A program made the position numbers and the translations under genes. Positions 44,914 through 56,884 of a DNA stretch of 64,000 nt are shown in pieces. The DNA lies in contig NZ_CP121679.1 in NCBI RefSeq assembly GCF_029760895.1, forward strand, positions 372,001 through 436,000. Direction: 5' to 3'. The stretch's first letter is position 1. Each line of letters starts with the position of its first letter. A model generated the notes under the pieces. It made no database searches and was not told the DNA's origin. It saw nothing but the letters and a program-made list of their open reading frames with translations. This stretch comes from Ancylobacter sp. WKF20. Lineage in GTDB: Bacteria; Pseudomonadota; Alphaproteobacteria; Rhizobiales; Xanthobacteraceae.

Positions 44914-45831
44914 TCAGATCCGCCAGCGGCGGTAGAACCAGGTCCACTGCTCGGGATGCTCGCGGACCCAGCCCTCGACGACCGAGGTGATCATCTGCAT
45001 CGAGCCGTCCACGTCGATCTTGCCCTTGGCGTCGCGCGGCAGATTGAGAGCGGGGGTGCACTGGATGCGGAAGCGTCCTTCCGGCAGGCGGATGACGCGC
45101 ACGCCGTGCACCGGGCATTCATAGAGCCGGGCGAGGCGGGCGATGGTGGGGTTGGTGGTGCAGGGCCGGCCGAAGAACTGCACGATCGGCCCGCCCTTGC
45201 GCGCCTGATCGACGAGGATGCCGAGATGCTTGCCCTGGTCCAGCACCGCCGCGAGCTCGAACACCGCGACATGCGAGGCGGCGACGAGGTTGCCCATCAC
45301 CTGGCTGCGGGCGCCGAACAGCAGGTCGGCGAAGAAGGTGTTGTCCGGCGCGCGGAACAGCACGGCGCTGTCCAGCCCCTGCGCGGCGGCGGCGATGGCC
45401 GGCAGTTCCCAGTTCGCCAGATGCGCGGTGAACACCAGCGCCGGCTTGCCGTCGATGCGCATGGCGACGAAGTTGGAGACGCCGGTGGTCTCGATCCGGC
45501 TCTTGGCCGGCTCCCACATATTGTACTGCCAGATGCGGTCGAGATGGACGAACTCGCCGGCCATGCGGCCGAGATTGTCCCACATGCCCCGCGCGATGGC
45601 CTGGCGCTCGGCCTCGGTTTTCTCCGGGTAGGCGAGGGCGAGGTTTTTCAACGCCGCCTTGTGGATCGGCGTGAAGGGACCGATGGCGCGGGCCCAGAAG
45701 CTGCCGACCCAGGCGGAGAATTGCGGGTTCTGCATCCGCAACAGGCGCGTGAGCGTCCACACGCCGGCCGAGAGGAAGCCATCGCGGATGCGAAGGCTCC
45801 ACGGCTTGCGCGGCGAGGTGTCCGTGCTCAT
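44914..45831 (-). CDS. lpxXL: Lipid A very-long-chain acyltransferase (LpxXL; LpxL/HtrB family)
   Basis: 305 residues. One N-terminal hydrophobic segment (about 20-32) anchors it. The acyltransferase motif HLANWE (Hx4E form of Hx4D/E) is near residue 137, followed by ILVDQARKGG and the ending WTWFYRRWRI typical of LpxL-type enzymes. The location at the end of the acpXL cluster identifies it as the enzyme moving the very-long-chain acyl group from AcpXL to lipid A. The ATG at 45831 starts a polar leader. It is 25 bases downstream of the dehydrogenase gene. Confidence 0.9.
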   Translation of the reverse strand: MSTDTSPRKPWSLRIRDGFLSAGVWTLTRLLRMQNPQFSAWVGSFWARAIGPFTPIHKAALKNLALAYPEKTEAERQAIARGMWDNLGRMAGEFVHLDRIWQYNMWEPAKSRIETTGVSNFVAMRIDGKPALVFTAHLANWELPAIAAAAQGLDSAVLFRAPDNTFFADLLFGARSQVMGNLVAASHVAVFELAAVLDQGKHLGILVDQARKGGPIVQFFGRPCTTNPTIARLARLYECPVHGVRVIRLPEGRFRIQCTPALNLPRDAKGKIDVDGSMQMITSVVEGWVREHPEQWTWFYRRWRI

Positions 45832-45856: not shown

Positions 45857-46879
45857 TCAGAAGGTGATGACCACCTTGCCGAAGACCCGGCGGGTTTCCA
45901 GCCGCTCCAGCCCGGCGCCGAACTGCTCCAGCGGGTACTGCGAATCGATGACCGGCAGCACGCCGCGCTCCATGCGCTTCAGACCGTCGGCAATGGCGCG
46001 GATCGGCGCGCCGAAGGAGCCGATGATGCGGTACTGGCGCTGGAAGAGCTGCATCAGGTTCATGTTCACCGACACGCCCGAGGTCGAGCCGCAGGTGACG
46101 AGGCGCGCGCCCGGCCGCATGGAGAGCAGCGAGCCGTTCCAGGTCTCGGCGCCGACATGCTCGAAGACGACGTCCACGCCCTTCTTCTTGGTGATCTTGC
46201 GGACCTCGTGCTCGAAGCGCTCGGTCTTGTAGTTGATGACATGGTCGGCGCCGAGCGCCTTGGCCTTGGCGCACTTCTCGTCATCGCCCGCCGTGGTGAT
46301 GACCGTGCAGCCGATCTCCTTGGCCATGCGGATCGCCACCGTGCCGATGCCGGAGCCGGCGGCGTGGACCAGCACGGTCTCGCCGGGCTCGAGCTTGGCA
46401 TTGTCGAACAGCATGTGCTCGACGGTGGAGAAGGTGACGGGCGCGGTGGCCGCGTCCACCCAGGAGATGCCGTCCGGGATCGGCACGCAGAGCCGGTCCT
46501 TGATGTTCAGCGTGTCGCGGGCAAAGCCATCGACATGGAAGCCCATGACGCCGGCGACTTCCTCGCAGAGATTGTCGCGGCCGGACTTGCACATGCGGCA
46601 TTGGCCGCAGGTGAGGGCGCCATACATGGCGACCTTCGAGCCCTTCTTGAAGCGGGTCACGCCCTCGCCGGTGGCGACGACTTCGCCGACCGCCTCGGCG
46701 CCGACGACCAGCGGCATCTTGCGCTTGGCGAAGGCCATGCCGCGCCAGCCCCAGACGTCGATATGGTTCAGCGCCAGCGCCTTGACGGCGACCTGAACCT
46801 CGCCCGGCGCCGGAGCATCCGGCTCCGGCAGGTCGACGAGCTTGAGTTCACGGTCGGAAACCAGTTGCAGCGCGCGCAT
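45857..46879 (-). CDS. Zinc-binding medium-chain dehydrogenase of the VLCFA cluster
   Basis: 340 residues, MDR fold. The NADPH-binding VHAAGSGIGTVAIRMAKEIG is near 155-174. A structural-zinc lobe with CGQCRMCKSGRDNLC is near 89-103, and a GHE-like VVGAEAVGEV segment precedes it. The position, between the fabG-like gene and lpxXL, matches the alcohol-dehydrogenase gene (fabXL/adh) of the rhizobial acpXL cluster, probably an enoyl or keto reductase in chain elongation. GGAG precedes the ATG at 46879. Confidence 0.88.
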   Translation of the reverse strand: MRALQLVSDRELKLVDLPEPDAPAPGEVQVAVKALALNHIDVWGWRGMAFAKRKMPLVVGAEAVGEVVATGEGVTRFKKGSKVAMYGALTCGQCRMCKSGRDNLCEEVAGVMGFHVDGFARDTLNIKDRLCVPIPDGISWVDAATAPVTFSTVEHMLFDNAKLEPGETVLVHAAGSGIGTVAIRMAKEIGCTVITTAGDDEKCAKAKALGADHVINYKTERFEHEVRKITKKKGVDVVFEHVGAETWNGSLLSMRPGARLVTCGSTSGVSVNMNLMQLFQRQYRIIGSFGAPIRAIADGLKRMERGVLPVIDSQYPLEQFGAGLERLETRRVFGKVVITF

Positions 46880-46984
46880 GAAACACTCCGAGGCAGCGCC
46901 GGCGGCTCGCATCGGCCCTGCTGGCCGCAAAAGCCAGAGGTGCCGCGCGGGCCGCCCGCGGAAAGACGAGGCTGGATAACGAAA

Positions 46985-47737
46985 TCAGCGCTGGATGGCT
47001 AGTGCGGCGGTGAGACCGCCATCCACCGGGAGGGTCGCGCCGGTCACATAGGCGGCACCGGGGGAGAGCAGGAAGCCGACCACGGCCCCCACATCCCCGG
47101 GCGCCGCGAAGCGCCCGGCCGGAATCTGCTTCTCGACATTGGCGCGATAGGCCGCGTAGGGCGCCAGCATCGCCGTGTCGACGAAGCCGGGGGCGACGAC
47201 GTTGACCGTGACGCCGCGCCGCGCCGTCTCGATGGCCAGCGTGCGGCAATAGCCGGCAAGCGCGGCCTTGGAGCCGGCATAGATGGCGTTGCCGGCATTG
47301 GCGACATCCGCCGCGATCGAGCCGATGGCGACGATGCGCCCGGCGCGGGCGCGCGTCATCGGCCGGATCAGCGCGCCGGCGATGCGCACGAAGGACCAGT
47401 AATTGACCTGCATGAGCTGCTCGGCCTTGGTCTGGTCGACCATCGCCGCCAGCGTGTCGTAGCTCATGCCGGCATTATGGACGAAGCCGAAATAGGCCGG
47501 CTCCTCCGCCACCTGTGCGGCGAAGGCCTCGACCGCGTCCTTGTCGGCGAGGTCGAGCGCGCGCACCTCGAGCGAGGCGTCCGGCTTCTCGGCCTTGATG
47601 TCGGCGATCAGCGCCTCGGCTTCCGCCGCGGCGGTGCGGACGGTGAAGACGACGTGAAAGCCGGCAAGCGCCGCGGCGCGCACAATGGCCGCGCCGACGC
47701 CGCGCCCGCCGCCGGTGACGAGAACACGCTGGGTCAT
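46985..47737 (-). CDS. fabG: SDR family oxidoreductase, probable 3-oxoacyl-ACP reductase of the VLCFA cluster
   Basis: 250 residues. TGGGRGVGAAIVRAA near 7-21 binds NADP; HNAGM is the NAG-type motif near 85; GSIAADVANAGNAIYAGSKAAL has the catalytic Ser, Tyr and Lys; and NVVAPGFVDTAM and the C-terminal YVTGATLPVDGG are FabG signatures. Rhizobial acpXL clusters, as I recall them, do not carry a ketoreductase here, so this would complete the elongation cycle. The start at 47737 has a weak ribosome-binding site. A GC hairpin pair lies between it and the upstream ketosynthase gene. Confidence 0.86.
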   Translation of the reverse strand: MTQRVLVTGGGRGVGAAIVRAAALAGFHVVFTVRTAAAEAEALIADIKAEKPDASLEVRALDLADKDAVEAFAAQVAEEPAYFGFVHNAGMSYDTLAAMVDQTKAEQLMQVNYWSFVRIAGALIRPMTRARAGRIVAIGSIAADVANAGNAIYAGSKAALAGYCRTLAIETARRGVTVNVVAPGFVDTAMLAPYAAYRANVEKQIPAGRFAAPGDVGAVVGFLLSPGAAYVTGATLPVDGGLTAALAIQR

Positions 47738-47759
47738 GCTGGGTGGTGCCTGTCGTCTG

Positions 47760-47796
47760 CTCTCCCGCATGGGGAGAGGCCGGCCCGCAGGGCCGG
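47760..47796. repeat. Tandem hairpins inside the VLCFA operon
   Basis: CTCTCCC / GGGAGAG around GCATG (47760-47778), directly followed by CCGGCCC / GGGCCGG around GCA (47780-47796). It lies in the 148-base gap between fabF1 and fabG, the only gap over 110 bases in this cluster. It resembles short palindromic repeats common in related genomes. Confidence 0.6.
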
Positions 47797-47885: not shown

Positions 47886-49166
47886 TCACGCCGGCGAGCC
47901 CTTCATGATCAGGCAGACATTCTGCCCGCCGAAACCGAAGGAGTTCGACATGATGCGGTTCACCTGCGCATCGCGCGCGACATTCGGCACCACGTCGAGC
48001 GGAATGGCCGGGTCCGGCAGCTCGTAATTGATGGTCGGCGGGATGCGGCCATTCTGGATGGTGAGCAGCGAGATCACCGCCTCGATGGCGCCGGCGGCGG
48101 TGAGCGTGTGGCCGATCATCGACTTGTTGGACGACAGCGGAATGCCCGCCAGACGCTCGCCGAACACGGCGGTCATGCCGGTGAACTCCATGCGATCGTT
48201 CTCGGGCGTCGAGGTGCCATGGGCGTTGATGTAGTCGATCTCGTCCGGCGTCACGGCCGCGTCGGCCAGCGCCCGGCGCATGCAGCCGATGACCGGCTTG
48301 GCGTCCGGCGAGGAGCGGGTGCGGTGGAAGCTGTCGGCCATCTCGCCGACACCCTCGATCACGCCGAGGATTTTCGCCCCGCGCGCGACCGCACTTTCCA
48401 TGCTCTCCATCACCAGGGCGCCCGCGCCCTCGGCGATGATGAAGCCGTCTCGGTTCTTGGCGAAGGGGCGGGAGGCGGCTTCCGGCACTTCGTTATTGGT
48501 CGACAGAGCCGACAGCAGCGAGAAGCGGATGAGCGCCTCGGCGGTCACCGAGCCATCGGTGGCGATGGACAGCGCCGCGTCGCAATCGCCGCGACGGATC
48601 GCCTCGACCGCGAGCTGGATCGAGGTGTTGCCGGAGGCGCAGGCGGTGGACAGCGAGATCGGCTGGCCGCGCGTGCCGAAACGGTCGGCGAGATGATCGG
48701 CGATCGAGCCGTAGAGGAAGCGCTCGTGCCAGGCGTCGTGGCCATTGGCCTCGGCGGCGCGCAGCAGGTCGTCATAGGAGATCGGCCCGTTGGCGGCGGC
48801 TTCCTGGCCGAGGATGCGGCGCTGCGGCCATTCCAGCTCGATCGGCGGCACGGCGCAGAACAGCGGGCCGGGGAAGTCGCCCTTGGAGCCGATCCCCGAT
48901 TCGCTGATCGCTTCTTCCGCCGCGAGCTGGGCCAGTTCCTCGGAGAGGTCCGGCGCGGTGCGCCCGCTCTCGGAGAGGTAGTCGACCGTACCGGCGATGG
49001 TGGTCCTCAGCGCATCAAGCGGGAAGCGGGTGATGCGATGAATGCCGGACTTGCCGGCCGTGAGCTTCGCCCAGTTGTCCGTCTTGCCCTGACCAAGCGA
49101 CGTGACCAGGCCCATGCCGGTAACGACGACGATCGGCCGGCCGGCCTTGTCGGTATAGGACGCCAT
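47886..49166 (-). CDS. fabF1XL: Beta-ketoacyl-ACP synthase with intact active site (FabF1XL)
   Basis: 426 residues, KASII fold. The catalytic triad is present: Cys176 in LSTACASGN, His316 in NAHGTSTPEND and His353 in MIGHTLTAAGA. It condenses malonyl-ACP with the growing acyl chain. The next gene upstream in the operon encodes a homolog without these residues, so this is the catalytic subunit of a possible pair. The ATG at 49166 follows a GGAGCAG-type site, 39 bases after fabF2. Confidence 0.93.
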   Translation of the reverse strand: MASYTDKAGRPIVVVTGMGLVTSLGQGKTDNWAKLTAGKSGIHRITRFPLDALRTTIAGTVDYLSESGRTAPDLSEELAQLAAEEAISESGIGSKGDFPGPLFCAVPPIELEWPQRRILGQEAAANGPISYDDLLRAAEANGHDAWHERFLYGSIADHLADRFGTRGQPISLSTACASGNTSIQLAVEAIRRGDCDAALSIATDGSVTAEALIRFSLLSALSTNNEVPEAASRPFAKNRDGFIIAEGAGALVMESMESAVARGAKILGVIEGVGEMADSFHRTRSSPDAKPVIGCMRRALADAAVTPDEIDYINAHGTSTPENDRMEFTGMTAVFGERLAGIPLSSNKSMIGHTLTAAGAIEAVISLLTIQNGRIPPTINYELPDPAIPLDVVPNVARDAQVNRIMSNSFGFGGQNVCLIMKGSPA

Positions 49167-49205: not shown

Positions 49206-50390
49206 TCAGTCGACGCGCTCCACAAGCGCGACGCCTTCCCCACGCCAATGCCCCACTGCGGTAACGATGGCACGGGAGAGCGGTCCATCGAAAGGCTTTT
49301 CAAGCGTTTCGCCGGGCAGCGGGGCGAAGAGCTGCCCTTCCGAAACTGCAAGGCTCGCCAGGGCGAGCGCGACCGGCATCTGCGCCTCGAGCCCGTGGCC
49401 GACGCGGTCGGTCACCGAGCGCACCGGCAGGCCGCTGCGGGTGAGGACGTCGACTTCGGCGCGGGTCGGCTCCGGCGCGCCGGAGGCGGCGGAGAGGATC
49501 GCGGTACCGGAAACATCCGCGCCCTTGGCCTCGTTGATGAGGCTTTCGAGCACCGCCGCGACGGCGGCGGGATCGTTGCGGCGCGCGCGCTCGGACCAGA
49601 CGCCGGAGAGCTTGGCGATGGGTTTCGCCCCACGCGCCGTGGCGTGCTCGGGCGATTCCAGAACCAGGAAGGCGCCGGCCGAGCCGGTCGGCACGCCCTT
49701 GGGGTCGGCCAGCACCGGCGCCCAGGGGGCGTGCATGGCGAGGCGCTTCAGGGCGAAGAGCAGCAGCATGTCGCGCCGCTCGGCATTATAGGCGCCGCCC
49801 ACCAGCGCGATCTCGCTCGTGCCGGCGGCAATGCGCGACCAGCCGATGCGCACCGCGTCCGTGCCGGAGCTTTCCTCGCCCATGAAGGTGCGCGAGGAGC
49901 CGGTGACGCCGTGGACGATGGAGATGTTGCCGGCCAGCAGATTGGAGAGCTGGGCGAGGAACAGGGTCGGGCGCAGGTTCGACTGAAGCTGTTCGTTCAG
50001 GAACACGTCCGGCTTCGGCTGCTTCTCGATGTCGGTGAGGATGGCGCCGTCGACCGACTGGTCGCGCTCGCCGCCGCCCGCCGCCACCACCATGTCGGTG
50101 GTGGAGAGAATGTCCTTGTTGCCGGCGATGCCGGCGGAAACGAGGGCGAGACCGGCCGCATAGGTGCCGATGCGCTGCCACGGTTCCATCTGGCGCTGGT
50201 CGCCGCGCTTGGGGATCTGCTTGTCGAAGTCGATCTTCGCCAGCGGATGCACGACGTAGGGCAGGAAGTTGCCCTCGTCGGTAACAGGCTTCGGCGTGGC
50301 CGACAGGGCCTGCCAGTGCGCTTCCAGCCCTTCACCCAGCGACGAGACGAGCCCGATGCCGGTGATCCAGACGTCACGACGATTAGACAT
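49206..50390 (-). CDS. fabF2XL: Ketosynthase homolog lacking the catalytic cysteine (FabF2XL)
   Basis: 394 residues with the thiolase fold: WITGIGLVSSLG at the start, SIVHGVTGSSR where the nucleophile elbow should be, and TDRVGHGLEAQMP at the second half. The aligned Cys position is Val162, and there is no cysteine in the whole protein. The usual NAHGT(S/G)TP block is replaced by a SGAPEPTRAE segment, so the first His is missing; a VGH remains. It therefore cannot act as an ordinary ketosynthase. By analogy with the chain-length factors of type II polyketide synthases, it may pair with FabF1XL. It overlaps fabZ by eight bases. Confidence 0.9.
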   Translation of the reverse strand: MSNRRDVWITGIGLVSSLGEGLEAHWQALSATPKPVTDEGNFLPYVVHPLAKIDFDKQIPKRGDQRQMEPWQRIGTYAAGLALVSAGIAGNKDILSTTDMVVAAGGGERDQSVDGAILTDIEKQPKPDVFLNEQLQSNLRPTLFLAQLSNLLAGNISIVHGVTGSSRTFMGEESSGTDAVRIGWSRIAAGTSEIALVGGAYNAERRDMLLLFALKRLAMHAPWAPVLADPKGVPTGSAGAFLVLESPEHATARGAKPIAKLSGVWSERARRNDPAAVAAVLESLINEAKGADVSGTAILSAASGAPEPTRAEVDVLTRSGLPVRSVTDRVGHGLEAQMPVALALASLAVSEGQLFAPLPGETLEKPFDGPLSRAIVTAVGHWRGEGVALVERVD

Positions 50391-50895
50391 GCGAGAGAGT
50401 TCCTGAGCACGCCGCGGCAGCGCCGGCGACGGCCGGCGGCTCCATCGGCATGCCGATGCGCTCGGCTGTAGTAAGAAGGTAACCGCGCAGCTCCGGAGCC
50501 GGGAACGGCATGGTTTTCAGCGTGATGTCGGCGTTGCAGACGAGCTTGCCTTCGACGCGACCCTCGGCCTTGAGGCGGGCGAAGCCGGAGCCGTCATGCT
50601 CCATGCGCGCGTCCACCTCGATGACCTGGCCGGGCGTGACGAAGGTCCGCAGCTTGCCCTTGTCGACCGAGGCGAGGAACGCCATGCGGTCGTAATTATG
50701 CAGGCGGAGCAGCAGCATGCCGCAGCTCTGCGCCATGATTTCGAACAGCAGGACCCCCGGCAGAAGCGGGTGCCCGGGGAAGTGCCCCTCGAAGATCGGG
50801 CTTTCATCCGGCACGATATTCGCCGTCTTCAGGGTGCGGGCCTCGAGGTCGAGGTTCAGCACCTTGTCGATCATCTGAAAATATTCGAGCCGCAT
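50383..50895 (-). CDS. fabZXL: 3-hydroxyacyl-ACP dehydratase (FabZ type) of the VLCFA cluster
   Basis: 170 residues, hot-dog fold. The FabZ signature EGHFPGHPLLPGVLLFEIMAQ has His38 and Glu52 as the catalytic pair. The C-terminal extension of about 35 residues is Ala-rich and longer than in housekeeping FabZ. It dehydrates 3-hydroxyacyl-ACP during elongation. The ATG at 50895 lies 34 bases after the AcpXL stop; its 3' end overlaps fabF2 by eight bases. Confidence 0.91.
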   Translation of the reverse strand: MRLEYFQMIDKVLNLDLEARTLKTANIVPDESPIFEGHFPGHPLLPGVLLFEIMAQSCGMLLLRLHNYDRMAFLASVDKGKLRTFVTPGQVIEVDARMEHDGSGFARLKAEGRVEGKLVCNADITLKTMPFPAPELRGYLLTTAERIGMPMEPPAVAGAAAACSGTLSHV

Positions 50896-50929: not shown

Positions 50930-51211
50930 TCAGGCGGACTTGGCGGCGATCAGCTCGTCGATGCGCGCGCAAAGGTTCTTGAGCACGAAATACTGCTCGG
51001 TCGTCGCCTTGCCTTCGTTGACTTCCTGCGTCCAGCTCTCGAGCGGGAGCTTGATGCCGAACGCCTTGTCGATGGCGAAGGCGATGTCCAGGAAGTCCAG
51101 GCTGTCGATGCCGAGATCGTCGATGGCGTGGCTCTCCGGCGTGATGTTCTCGCGCGGGATGTCGCACGTCTCGGCGATGATGTTGGCGACGGTCTCGAAC
51201 GTGGTCGACAT
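50930..51211 (-). CDS. acpXL: Acyl carrier protein AcpXL
   Basis: 93 residues, as in rhizobial AcpXL and longer than housekeeping AcpP (78). The phosphopantetheine site is Ser37 in [10 protein letters not shown]. The C-terminal part ([20 protein letters not shown]) is typical of the AcpXL group. It carries the very-long-chain acyl (27-hydroxyoctacosanoate class) to LpxXL. It is the first gene of the cluster; the very long frame running upstream is a shadow of the alpha-2-macroglobulin gene. The start at 51211 has AGAGG upstream. Confidence 0.94.
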
Positions 51212-51535
51212 GGAAAGCCTCTGGTCTCGGCGGCCGCGTCCGGCCACGGTTGAATCGGAGCGTCTCCCGGCACGGCTGTGACGGCAGGCCCCCAAATGGA
51301 TGTCGGCCCGTATACCTAAGCGCGGACGGCTATTCAATGGCAGCGGCGCGGCAATCCTCGGCTGTGTGACATCCGCGCCCGCCGCGCCGCGCGCGAGGGT
51401 TGGCCCCGCGCCGGTGGACAGGGGCGCGATGAGGGGCCGGCGAGCAGCCGGTGAATGGTTGACGTCATGGCCCGGACGCGGATTTCGGCCTATCGTGACG
51501 TCACCCGCCGGGGCGGGATCTTTCGAGGTGGTGCT
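51212..51535. promoter_or_regulatory. Divergent promoter region of acpXL and alpha-2-macroglobulin genes
   Basis: 324 bases with no gene. It contains two copies of the 8-bp palindrome TGACGTCA at 51460-51467 and 51496-51503 (the second inside GTGACGTCAC), 36 bases apart and 32-75 bases upstream of the A2M start. These are candidate operators. The GC-rich central part leads to the ribosome-binding site GAGGTGG. Confidence 0.45.
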
Positions 51536-54500
51536 ATGGGTGGCGTGCGGTTGGCTTTTTCCTCTCTCGGGCGCGCCGTCGCCGCGTCGTCGCTGGTTCT
51601 GGCGCTGATGCTCGCGCCGGCCATGGCGCAGAACGTGCTGCCGGCGGCCAAGCCGGCCGCTCAGGCCACCAAGCCAGCCGCCCAGGCGGGCAAGCCCTCG
51701 GCGACCGGCGCGGCCGCGACCGTCGGAGCCCCGGCGCAGGACGCGCTGCCCAAGACCTTTACCCGGCAGGATCTTGTCGAGGCCGCGCGCCGGCTGCAGG
51801 CGCTGCTCGACCGCGAGCGCGGGCCGTTGCCCAAGCCCGCCGCGCAGCTGCGCAAGGACGCCGATGCCGCGCTGGCGGCGGGGGATGCGCGCACCGCGAC
51901 CGATCTTTACGGCCAGCTCGCCCATGCCGCCGGCAACGATGCCGGCGCGTGGCTGCGGCTCTCGCGGGCGCTGGCGCGCATCAAGCCGAATGACGACGAG
52001 AGCGGCGACGTGTTCCTGGAGCGGGCGCAGGGCGCGGCGTTCCTCGCCTATCGCAACGCCACGACCCGCGCGCAGCAGGCGGACGCGCTGTTCGCCATCG
52101 GCCATCTCTACGACCAGCGCCAGCTCTGGCGCGCGGCACTCGACACGCTCACCCTCGCGCTGACCTACGCCAACGTTCCCGATCAGCGGGCCTTCTACGA
52201 CAAGTTGCGCGCCGAGCGCGGCTTCCGCATGCTCGACTACAGCGTCGATTCGGACGCGGCGAGCCCGCGCATCTGCGTGCAGTTTTCCGAGCCGCTGGCC
52301 AAGGCGACGGACTATGCCGCCTATGTCACGCTGAAGGGCCCGCAGGGCGTGGTCGACAAGCCGGCGGTGTCCTTCGAGGACAGCCAGCTTTGCGTCGAGG
52401 GGCTGAAGCATGGCGAGAGCTATGATGTCGGCCTGCGCCAGGGCCTGCCCTCCAGCATCGCGAGCGAGCCGCTGGCCGCCGCGGCCGACCTCACCATCTA
52501 TGTGCGTGACCGCAAGCCGGGCGTGCGCTTCACCGGGCGCAATTACGTGCTGCCGCGCACCGGCCCGCGCGGCATTCCGCTGGTGAGCGTCAACACCTCG
52601 GTTGTCGGCGTCGAGCTCTATCGCATCGGCGACCGGAGCCTCATTCCCACCGCCATTGATGGCGAGTTCCGCCGCGATCTCGCGGGCTATGATCTGGAGC
52701 GGCTGAAGTCCGGCCGGGCCGAGCTGGTCTTCAAGGGCGAGCTGGAGACCGCGTCGCCGCTCAATGAGGACGTCACCACCGCCTTCCCGGTGGATGAGGC
52801 CGCGCCGACGCTGGCGCCCGGCGTCTATGTGCTCGCCGCCCGCCCGGCCGGTTCCGCCGCCGACCCGAGCGACGAATGGGGTACGAGGGCGACGCAGTGG
52901 TTCGTCGTCTCCGATCTCGGCATGACCGCGCTGTCCGGCTCGACCGGCCTCACCGTGATGGTGCGCGCGCTCGGCACCGCCCAGCCGCTGGCCGATGTCG
53001 AGCTGCGCCTGCTCGCCAAGTCCAACGAGGTGCTGGCGACCGCGACCACCGACGCCACTGGCGGCGCCGCCTTCGCGCCGGGCGTGATGCGTGGCACTGA
53101 CGGTTTCGCCCCGGCCGTGCTTGTCGCCCGCGCCAAGGATGGCGACTACGCCTTCCTGTCGCTGGAAGATCAGGCCTTCGATCTCACCGATCGCGGCGTC
53201 GGTGGCCGGGCGGCGCCGGACAAGATGGACGCCTTCCTCACCACCGAGCGCGGGGTCTACCGCTCCGGCGAGGAGGTGCATCTCACCGCGCTGCTGCGTA
53301 ACCCGCAGGTGGAGGCGGTGGCTGGCGTGCCGCTGACGCTCATGCTCAAGCGGCCCGATGGTGTCGAGGAGCGCCGCGTCGTCGCCGAGGATGCCGGCGC
53401 CGGCGGGCGCGCGGTCGTCTTCCCGCTGATGAGCGGCGCGATGACCGGGGTGTGGCGGATCGAGGCCTATGTCGACCCGCGCGGCAAGCCCGTGGGCGAG
53501 ACGACGTTCCTGCTCGAAGACTATGTGCCGGAGCGGCTGGCGCTCGACCTCTCCAGCACCACGACCCGCATCGCCCCAAAAACGCCGGTGACGGTGGATG
53601 CCAGCGGGCGCTGGCTGTTCGGCCCCCCGGCCGCCGGGCTGGAAATCGCCGGCGAGATCGAGGTGCGCGTCGCCAAGGAGCGCCCGAACCTGCCGGGCTG
53701 GCAGTTCGGCCGCCCCGATGACGGCTTCGCGCCGGTGCGCGCGGCGCTGCCGGACCTCGCCACCACCGATGCCGCCGGCAAGGCGCGGCTCTCCGCCCTG
53801 CTGCCGACCCTGCCGCCAACCGCCCGTCCGCTGGAGGCGGAAATCTTCGTCAGCCTGGAGGAAGGCGGCGGGCGCGCGGTGCGCCGCTCGCTGGTGATTC
53901 CGGTCGAGCCGGCGCCGCTGGTTTTGGGCGTGAAGCCTCTTTTCGGGCCGAGCGGGCCGGGCGAGAACGCCAATGCGAGCTTCGAGGTGCAGGCCTTTGA
54001 TGCGGCGGGCGCCTCTGTGGCGAGGCCCGGCGCGAGCTGGGCGCTCTACCGCATCGAGACCCGCTATCAATGGTATCGCCTGGGCGGCAGTTGGGATTTC
54101 GAGCCGGTGCAGTCGGTCGCCAAGGTGGCCGATGGCAAGCTCGATCTCGGCAGCGCACCGGCGCGGCTCGACGTGCCGGTCGGCTGGGGCCGCTACCGGC
54201 TGGAAGTGAGCGATGGCAGCCTCGTCACCGCCGTGCCCTTCGAGGCCGGCTGGGGCGGCGGGGCGACGGCCGACGCGCCGGACAGGCTGGAGGTTAGTCT
54301 CGACAAGAAGCAGTACGCCGCTGGCGAGACGCTGAAGGTGAACCTCGCGAGCCGCCATGCCGGTTCCGCCACCGTGCTGATCGTCGGCGACGGCGTCTTC
54401 GCCGCGAAGACGCTCGACGTGCCGGCCGGCGCCAGCACGGTGGACTTCCCCGTCGCGGCGGGCTGGGGACCGGGCGCTTATGCGCTCGCCTTCCTGCACC

Positions 54501-56884
54501 GCCCGCTCGATGTGGCGGCCGGCCGCAACCCCGGCCGGGCCATCGGCCTTGCCTGGTTCGGCGTCGACCAGTCCGCGCGCCGGCTGGAGGTGAAGCTCGA
54601 CGCCCCGACGCTGGTGCGGCCGGAGACGACGCTCTCGGTTCCCGTCACCGTCGCCGGGGCCGGGAACGGCGAAGCCTTCGTCACGCTGGCGCTGGTCGAT
54701 GTCGGCATTCTCAACCTCACCCGCTTCGAGGCGCCGGACCCGGATGGCTTCTATCTCGGCCAGCGCGCGCTGGGCACGGAGGTGCGCGACTTCTACGGCC
54801 AGTTGATCGACGGCATGCTTGGTTCGCGCGGCCGCCTGCGCGCCGGTGGCGACGCGATGGACGCGGGCCTTCAGGCCGAGCCGCCGACACAGCCGCCGCT
54901 CGCTCTGTTCGCCGGCCCGGTGAAGCTGGACGCGGAAGGGCGCGGCACCATCGACTTCGCCATTCCCCCCTTTGACGGCACGGGCCGGCTGATGGCGGTG
55001 GCGTGGTCCGCGGCTGCCGTCGGCCATGCCTCGGCCGATGTCATCATCCGCGACCCGGTGGTGCTCACCGCGACGCTGCCGCGCTTCCTCGCCGCCGGTG
55101 ACCGCTCGACGCTCAATCTCGCCTTGGCCAATGTCGATGGCGAGGCCGGCGACTATGCGCTCGATGTGGTGACGGAAGGCCCGATCACGGTGCCGAGCGC
55201 GCCCAAGACCATCCCGCTCGCCAAGGGCGCGCGGCAGGCCTTCAATGTCGCGCTGAACGGCACGGGGATTGGCGAGGCGAAGCTGTCGCTGCGGCTTTCC
55301 GGTCCCGGCGGCCTCAGCGTTACCCGCGACTACCGGCTGAATGTGCGCCCGGCCTATCCGGCGATCTCGCGCCGGACGGTGGAGGCCATCGCGCCCGGCG
55401 CTTCGCTGACGCTGAGCCGCGATCTCGTGGCCGATCTCGTGCCGGGCACGGGCGGCGTCACCGTCTTCGCCGGACCCGACCCGGCGCTCGACGTGCCCGC
55501 GCTGCTCGGCGCGCTCGACCGCTACCCCTTCGCCTGCTCCGAACAGCTCACCAGCCGCGCCCTCCCGCTGCTCTATCTCAGCGATTTCGGCACGGCCGAG
55601 CGGTTCCGCCTGAAGGACCCGGCGGAAACCATCCGCGACGCCATCGCCCGGCTGATCGCCCGGCAGGGCTCGGACGGTTCCTTCGGCCTGTGGAGCGCGG
55701 GCGGCAATGACCTCTGGCTTGACGCCTATGTCAGCGACTTCCTCACCCGTGCCCGCGAAAAGGGCCACAAGGTGCCGGAGCAGCCCTTCACCATGGCGCT
55801 CGACCGGCTGCGCAACGCGGTGGCCTATGCCAGCGAGGGCGCGACCGATGACGGCACCGCCTATGCCATCTATGTGCTCGCCCGCAATGGCCGTGCCCCG
55901 CTCGGCGATCTGCGCTACGTCGCCGATGCCAAGCTCGAGGACGTACAGAGCCCGCTGGCGCGCGGCCAGATTGGCGCGGCGCTCGCCATGCTCGGCGACA
56001 AGACCCGCGCCGAGCGGGTGTTCGGGGCGGCGCTGGAACTGCTGCCGGACGCGCCGGAGACGCTGACCTCCGGGCGCGCCGATTTCGGCTCGATCCTGCG
56101 CGACGCGGCGGGCGTGGCGACGCTGGCCTCGGAAGCCGGCTTCACCGGCACGGCGCGCACCGCGCGGTCCCGGCTCGCCACCGCCTTCGTCGATGCCGGG
56201 CCGACCTCGACGCAGGAAGATGCCTGGCTGCTGCTCGCCGCCCGCGCCGCGCGCGAGGGCAAGGGGCTGGCGGTGGAGGTCGATGGGCGCCTCACCAGCG
56301 GCATCTATGAGCGCACGCTCACCCCGGCCGAGCTGGCGACGCCGATCAAGCTGACCAATCGCGGCACGGCGCCGCTTGATGTCGCGGTGTCCATCGACGG
56401 CCCGCCCGCGACCCCCGAGTCCGCCTCGGCCGAGGGTTTCGCGCTCACCCGTAGCTATTTCACGCTGGACGGCACGCCGGTGGACCCGGCCAAGGTGGCG
56501 CAGAACACAAGGCTCGTCGTGGTACTGGATGCGAGCGAGGATGAGGCGGCGCCGAGCCATGTGCTGCTGGTGGATTATCTGCCGGCCGGTTTCGAGATCG
56601 ACAATCCGGCCCTCGCCGTTGGCGCCGACACCGGCACGCTCGCCTGGATCGGCGAGACCTCGGACCCCGCCCATACCGAGTTCCGCGACGCCTTCTTCGC
56701 CGCTGCCTTCGACCTGACGCAGGAAGGCGAGGAACCGCAGAGCCTGCGCGTCGCCTATATAGTGCGCGCCGTCTCGCCCGGCAGCTATGCCCACCCGCCG
56801 GCCATCGTCGAGGACATGTACCGGCCGGGCCGCTATGCCCGCACCGAGCCCGGCAAGGTCGAGGTGACGGGGGCGGCACGGTGA
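51536..56884 (+). CDS. yfhM: Alpha-2-macroglobulin family protein (YfhM type)
   Basis: 1782 residues, matching bacterial A2M. A signal peptide ends at AMA-QN and an Ala/Pro/Lys linker follows. Helical repeats (about 50-230), MG domains, an alpha-helical thioester domain and a C-terminal receptor-like domain come next. The thioester motif is Cys1334-Ser-Glu-Gln1337 (YPFACSEQ), needed for covalent protease trapping. There is no lipobox cysteine, unlike E. coli YfhM, so it may be soluble. I chose the ATG at 51536 for its GAGGTGG site; the frame is open to 51455. The stop overlaps pbpC. Confidence 0.92.

Follow-up and report, generated by a model that had tools for sequence, protein, structure and literature searches.

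In rhizobia and related bacteria, the very-long-chain fatty acid (VLCFA) of lipid A reinforces the outer membrane and is important for living within host cells. According to the passages available from published genetic work, insertion into fabF2XL of Agrobacterium fabrum yields lipid A without VLCFA, with partial restoration in trans (PMC11901934); acpXL, fabZXL, fabF1XL, and fabF2XL of Bradyrhizobium ORS278 were not disruptable, and lpxXL was (PMC5613085); and Sinorhizobium meliloti mutated in lpxXL, adhA2XL, fabF1XL, fabF2XL, or fabZXL grows at a disadvantage in the medium employed (PMC5539429). As the A. fabrum mutant carries an insertion, polar effects may contribute to its phenotype. One published table, in its accessible part, names fabF1XL and fabF2XL both as beta-ketoacyl-ACP synthase. 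A description as "two FabF enzymes" leaves unexplained how a type II fatty acid system is directed toward C26–C30 products.

A ketosynthase (KS) paired with an inactive homolog, the chain-length factor (CLF), is the arrangement of actinorhodin biosynthesis (1tqy_A/1tqy_B). In the aryl polyene pair ApeO-ApeC, as the available passages describe it, a KS is joined by a catalytically degenerate protein in a reducing, fatty-acid-like pathway of Gram-negative bacteria; both proteins line the cavity, which extends as far as His138 of ApeO and Glu142 of ApeC, and ApeC is about half-size, with one thiolase domain and the second almost lost (PMC8358021). The open-access passages on fabF2XL discuss neither missing catalytic residues nor a chain-length factor, and the open-access literature, with subscription papers mostly outside it, contained nothing joining chain length factor with lipid A VLCFA or Rhizobium lipopolysaccharide, or linking 27OHC28 with ketoacyl.

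The window analyzed here is a stretch of 64,000 nucleotides (contig NZ_CP121679.1, positions 372,001 to 436,000) and part of the single-contig, 4.63 Mb genome of Ancylobacter sp. WKF20. Its minus strand carries, in order, acpXL (50930–51211; a dedicated acyl carrier protein of 93 aa, NF005079, 180 bits), fabZXL (50383–50895; 3-hydroxyacyl-ACP dehydratase by ORF and family match), fabF2XL (49206–50390), fabF1XL (47886–49166; an active-type ketosynthase of 426 aa, NF005076, and the proposed partner of FabF2XL), a gene for a FabG-like SDR (short-chain reductase; 46985–47770, by ORF and family match), a gene for a zinc-type alcohol dehydrogenase family protein (45857–46930; at the adh2XL position, start codon uncertain), and lpxXL (44914–45831; lipid A acyltransferase, NF005120, 385.8 bits). 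The start of fabF2XL, the third gene, overlaps the end of fabZXL by 8 bases, and 39 bases, with AGGAG ahead of the fabF1XL start, separate its stop codon from that start. The 394-residue ORF without Cys described in the sequence-only reading was confirmed and lies on the minus strand. Its product, a non-catalytic ketosynthase homolog, matches NCBIfam NF005084 at 564.5 bits (curated cut-off 320), a family placement with which its position in an acpXL-fabZXL-fabF2XL-fabF1XL cluster agrees, and its closest named proteins are from Ancylobacter. With Pfam at E 0.001, PF00109 was the sole match, and neither PF02801 nor PF13723 was detected.

Two further features of this region were recorded. The FabG-like reductase between fabF1XL and adh, which may be a dedicated VLCFA reductase, occupies the same place in Ancylobacter, Xanthobacter, and Azorhizobium loci and was not found in most Bradyrhizobium loci. 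Upstream of acpXL, a divergent plus-strand ORF (51455–56884, 1809 aa) may, by reading alone, be alpha-2-macroglobulin-like.

We located the active site of FabF2XL with two alignments. MAFFT placed E. coli FabF Cys164 (Met1 numbering) opposite Glu173, within SRTFMGEE (codon 49872–49874, minus strand), and a phmmer alignment to the solved KAS II 4jrh likewise set the catalytic Cys opposite this residue; Val162, which the sequence-only reading had taken for the nucleophile position, was thereby ruled out. The NAHGTxTP block is indeed gone (ILSAASGAPEPT), as that reading had reported, and the GFGG loop is absent. Its description of the next gene as a ketosynthase with Cys176, His316, and His353 also proved correct, Cys176 (codon 48639–48641, minus strand) being the nucleophile of FabF1XL. 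An active elongating ketosynthase (FabF/FabB) has a Cys-His-His triad and a Lys; the second His, His332 (codon 49395–49397, minus strand), is the only one of these present in FabF2XL.

The MAFFT alignment comprised E. coli FabF, act CLF, 128 F2XL proteins, and 125 F1XL proteins, and residues were also counted in an enlarged collection with 183 distinct F2XL and 180 distinct F1XL sequences, in which an F2 row required at least 180 BLAST bits to the window's F2 and a better F2 than F1 score. Four of the F2XL sequences are short: L005 (the FabF2XL of the window itself, truncated by the locus boundary), L102, and the second copies of L180 and L186. A carboxylate fills the nucleophile column in 183/183 F2XL sequences (Glu 182, Asp 1), the first catalytic His occurs in none of the 180 readable sequences, and the catalytic Lys in none of 181. 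The first-His column reads A/G in the MAFFT set and S/T in the enlarged set, a one-position alignment shift with no His either way. Where active enzymes have the GFGGTN loop, 129/183 F2XL sequences have GHxRGE. The F1XL nucleophile column holds Cys in 179 of 180 sequences (X in the other), and both His and the Lys are present in 179, the remaining row having a gap. One locus search used SRTFMGEE itself among its six peptide patterns, which biases that search toward the motif; loci from whole-profile searches agree with the pattern-derived loci.

Because Cys, first His, and Lys are absent across F2XL, FabF2XL should not function as a ketosynthase by the known mechanism, and the loss is a family trait rather than an error. 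No homolog with an intact triad occurred among the 183 F2XL sequences, and the frameshift or assembly error that the sequence-only reading had considered does not explain the residues, since the same Glu is found in 120/120 among the database relatives listed, which are partly the same sequences as the loci. The A. fabrum FabF2XL would, judging from the family, also have Glu at this site. The suggestion that catalytic Cys and His are missing in all homologs held for the Cys and the first His and failed for the second His. Freedom from Cys is true of the window protein and of 62/183 homologs; it is incidental and unfit as a family diagnostic.

Two side observations concern related proteins. FabF1XL matches KAS II well beyond residue 150 and poorly in the preceding stretch, about 93–150, with only 1–3 of 20 identities to FabF per block in 101–160, so that the active partner, too, shows changes close to where the dimer region is expected. 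In addition, three genomes of the same taxonomic order (L146–L148, family code f174) encode a ketosynthase-like protein, NF004798 (PRK06147), about 340 aa long and possibly another degenerate KS.

Profile surveys, in which at most 4 to 6 candidates were scored per genome, were used to follow the occurrence of the two proteins. F2XL exceeded the profile cut-off in 18/385 genomes of the window's class, with scores falling from 371 to 94 bits among the matches listed; in 35/398 genomes of a phylum survey, every one of them in the window's class; and in 78/297 genomes of an order survey (79 at E 1e-30). F1XL, at E 1e-105, was found in 17/385 class genomes, all within the 18 carrying F2XL. In the eighteenth (G227), which has no F1XL match, the F2XL match ends at the contig end. 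A same-strand F1 ORF follows the F2 ORF in 184/189 cases, a count that includes overlapping loci of one genome. At L074, F1 is cut by the contig end; L031 and L102 end at contig ends, and the L031 genome has F1 on another contig. In Xanthobacter tagetidis (L017), the cluster is split, fabF2XL having no fabF1XL downstream and fabF1XL lying on a different contig. L198 is the fifth exception, and it and L017 speak against the pairing. Two F2-F1 pairs within 16 kb occur at each of four loci from genomes of the window's order (L190, L180, L181, and L186); the second F2XL is shortened in L180 and L186, the shortened copies being 252 and 327 aa.

We searched for natural fusions with the read-through F2-F1 sequence, accepting proteins of 0.55 to 1.75 times the query length, a filter that removes ordinary-length proteins consisting of F2 or F1 alone. 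Among the 101 matches, 22 two-part proteins were checked with profiles: 19 were F2XL/F1XL-like and 3 of the Riflebacteria type. P0246, a metagenome protein of 818 aa with 3 member sequences, is the sole one of the 22 with both profiles nearly whole. Its N half scores 385.5 bits to the F2XL profile (15–399 of 401) with MGEE present, and its C half 567.6 bits to the F1XL profile (6–423 of 426) with Cys, His, Lys, and His present; the junction could be a sequence error. P0248 and P0250 also run without a stop from the F2XL end into F1XL, but start inside F2XL. Most of the remaining double matches, broken off inside the F2XL profile, look to us like frameshifted gene calls.

FabF2XL is needed for VLCFA, lacks ketosynthase chemistry, has an active twin nearly always adjacent, and is once fused to it; the best reading is a ketosynthase heterodimer of which it forms the non-catalytic half. 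We consider it likely that FabF2XL is a conserved non-catalytic subunit of ketosynthase fold that pairs with the active FabF1XL and works like a CLF; the shift of its conserved columns toward the N-terminal half, described below, also speaks for this. The sequence-only reading had proposed an inactive homolog and an active KS as in KS-CLF, and this parallel gains support from residue loss, co-occurrence, paired duplication, fusion, and the published mutant, though the residue it had named is wrong. From these data we infer the physical F1XL:F2XL heterodimer, its shared tunnel, and any control of chain length. FabF1XL would carry out the condensations on AcpXL-bound chains; FabF2XL would contribute the dimer's second side, probably the distal end of the acyl tunnel, and would thereby permit elongation to C26–C30. 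Control of VLCFA length by F2XL is plausible.

FabF2XL might instead be a pseudo-enzyme in its own right, such as a homodimeric scaffold for AcpXL or the other cluster enzymes, with FabF1XL homodimeric as well. Coevolution and a fused structural model were uninformative about a pairing: when 178 unique F2-F1 pairs, with an effective number of 77, were put through mean-field DCA, no interface signal emerged, the top inter-protein pairs being scattered and hub-like, and the AlphaFold model of the read-through F2-F1 chain showed no F1:F2 interface. This model had a mean pLDDT of 68.2 and a pTM of 0.69 (five models, 68.2 to 45.9), with low confidence in 139–174 and 614–653, among other stretches, and at that mean pLDDT it was set aside as evidence on the dimer. 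In a VIA comparison, the KAS II chains, the ishigamide KS/CLF entry, and act CLF all fell within about 1.5 Z, so the fold does not discriminate KAS II from CLF. An independent role would also suit L198, where F1XL was sought in the 1.8 kb following F2XL and not found, and the genetics, which says only that fabF2XL is needed. However, the fold dimerizes in relatives and the same-fold neighbor is fixed, and the 17/17 co-occurrence and the natural fusion favor pairing with F1XL; we regard the separate pseudo-enzyme as unlikely.

Still less probable, in our view, is that FabF2XL is another kind of enzyme, which uses Glu172/Glu173 and the retained His in, for example, malonyl-AcpXL decarboxylation (KSQ-like) or hydrolysis. 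The second His is present in 162/181 readable F2XL sequences, unlike act CLF, which makes a residual chemical role possible, and MGEE, like several charged residues, hardly varies. On the other hand, the His332 position is replaced in 19/181 otherwise normal homologs, and the first His (0/180) and the Lys (0/181) are gone throughout. KSQ decarboxylases have Gln in place of Cys and keep both catalytic His, whereas F2XL has Glu or Asp and lacks the first His in 180/180. The distribution of conservation, counted as columns conserved to at least 95% after sequence weighting at 80% identity, also argues against other chemistry: it is highest in the segment adjoining the dead site and lowest in the catalytic half. 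Residues 101–180 of F2XL have 31/80 such columns, with a peak of 15/20 in residues 141–160 (PTLFLAQLSNLLAGNISIVH; codons 49911–49970, minus strand), the most conserved block, and residues 261–394 have only 6/134, compared with 61/166 in residues 261–426 of F1XL. F2XL 141–160 aligns to FabF 132–151, which we take to be a dimer-interface segment that helps line the partner's pocket. F2XL, although full length, is constrained mostly in its N-terminal half, and pairing with FabF1XL, the reading that we prefer, would be a suitable cause.

That FabF2XL is a decaying duplicate without function is very improbable: catalytic residues are lost, L180 and L186 have short second copies, and a common F2+F1 clade was not rejected (p-AU 0.238), but the ORF is open and full length in 179/183 sequences, many columns stand at 98% or more, and, in the passages available, A. 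fabrum VLCFA needs the gene (PMC11901934) and its disruption in ORS278 failed (PMC5613085).

Should one of the two FabF proteins be a dead partner, as the heterodimer reading holds, the annotation of the whole NF005084 family would be misleading, purification of the condensing enzyme should aim at the pair, and point mutants in F2XL would offer a test of chain-length control. FabF2XL belongs to the same family as the NF005084 (PRK06519) proteins and shares their acpXL-fabZXL-fabF2XL-fabF1XL gene order; the family name "beta-ketoacyl-ACP synthase" implies an active synthase, whereas the residues of FabF2XL say otherwise. Compared with the KAS II FabF, F2XL is without the Cys, the first His, the Lys, and the GFGG loop.

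Dead and live ketosynthase halves also occur in single chains elsewhere. Three proteins of 809–920 aa combine a dead, Glu-bearing N half with a live C half: P0272 and P0275, both named as Candidatus Riflebacteria, and P0273, which falls together with P0275. P0272 and P0275 thus share with the F2-F1 pair the order, the Glu at the dead site, and the live second half, and P0272 carries RPTLxxxxLSN, a motif also found in F2XL. The Riflebacteria N halves score 69.6–81.5 bits to the F2XL profile, within the FabF-type range of 57.5–104.8, and by this profile test are not F2XL orthologs. A large set of double ketosynthases (P0281–P0320; 670–830 aa, some with PF13723), with names including Streptosporangiaceae, Pseudonocardiaceae, and Labilithrix, was seen as well; it has the reverse order, the live half first and the Cys-less half second, in 15/15 checked. 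In a first tree, F2 and CLF shared a side of one branch at support 92, unstarred and flagged for long branches. A second tree set gave p-AU 0.354 for F2+CLF, p-AU 0.282 for F1 with the Riflebacteria C halves, and support 51 for F2 with the Riflebacteria N halves. These values do not discriminate between the possible origins of F2XL. We put forward only tentatively, and with somewhat less than even confidence, the broader view that the lipid A VLCFA of these Alphaproteobacteria is made by a dedicated KS/CLF-type heterodimer, in which a Glu-marked, full-length pseudo-ketosynthase forms the tunnel end and sets C26–C30, and that such a dead-plus-live pair is a general solution with several separate origins, among them the Candidatus Riflebacteria fused chains and, reversed, the actinobacterial and myxobacterial proteins.

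The likeness to ApeO-ApeC lies in a KS with a degenerate partner in a fatty-acid-like pathway, as proposed for F1XL/F2XL. ApeC is about half-size, whereas F2XL has 394 aa and no match to PF13723, presumably the thiolase domain of ApeC-type CLF, and F2XL is therefore not an ApeC-type CLF with a single thiolase domain. FabF2XL and FabF1XL do present the CLF arrangement of a Cys-less KS homolog beside an intact-triad KS gene. At the nucleophile, first His, Lys, and second His positions, act CLF has Gln, Asp, Lys, and Arg. F2XL thus differs from it in having Glu (182 sequences; Asp in 1) where act CLF, like P0233, has Gln, and in having lost the Lys and retained the second His, the reverse of act CLF. 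The actinorhodin KS-CLF makes a polyketide, whereas the product of the F2XL system is a fatty acid; if our reading is true, the KS-CLF principle extends from secondary metabolites to an envelope lipid.
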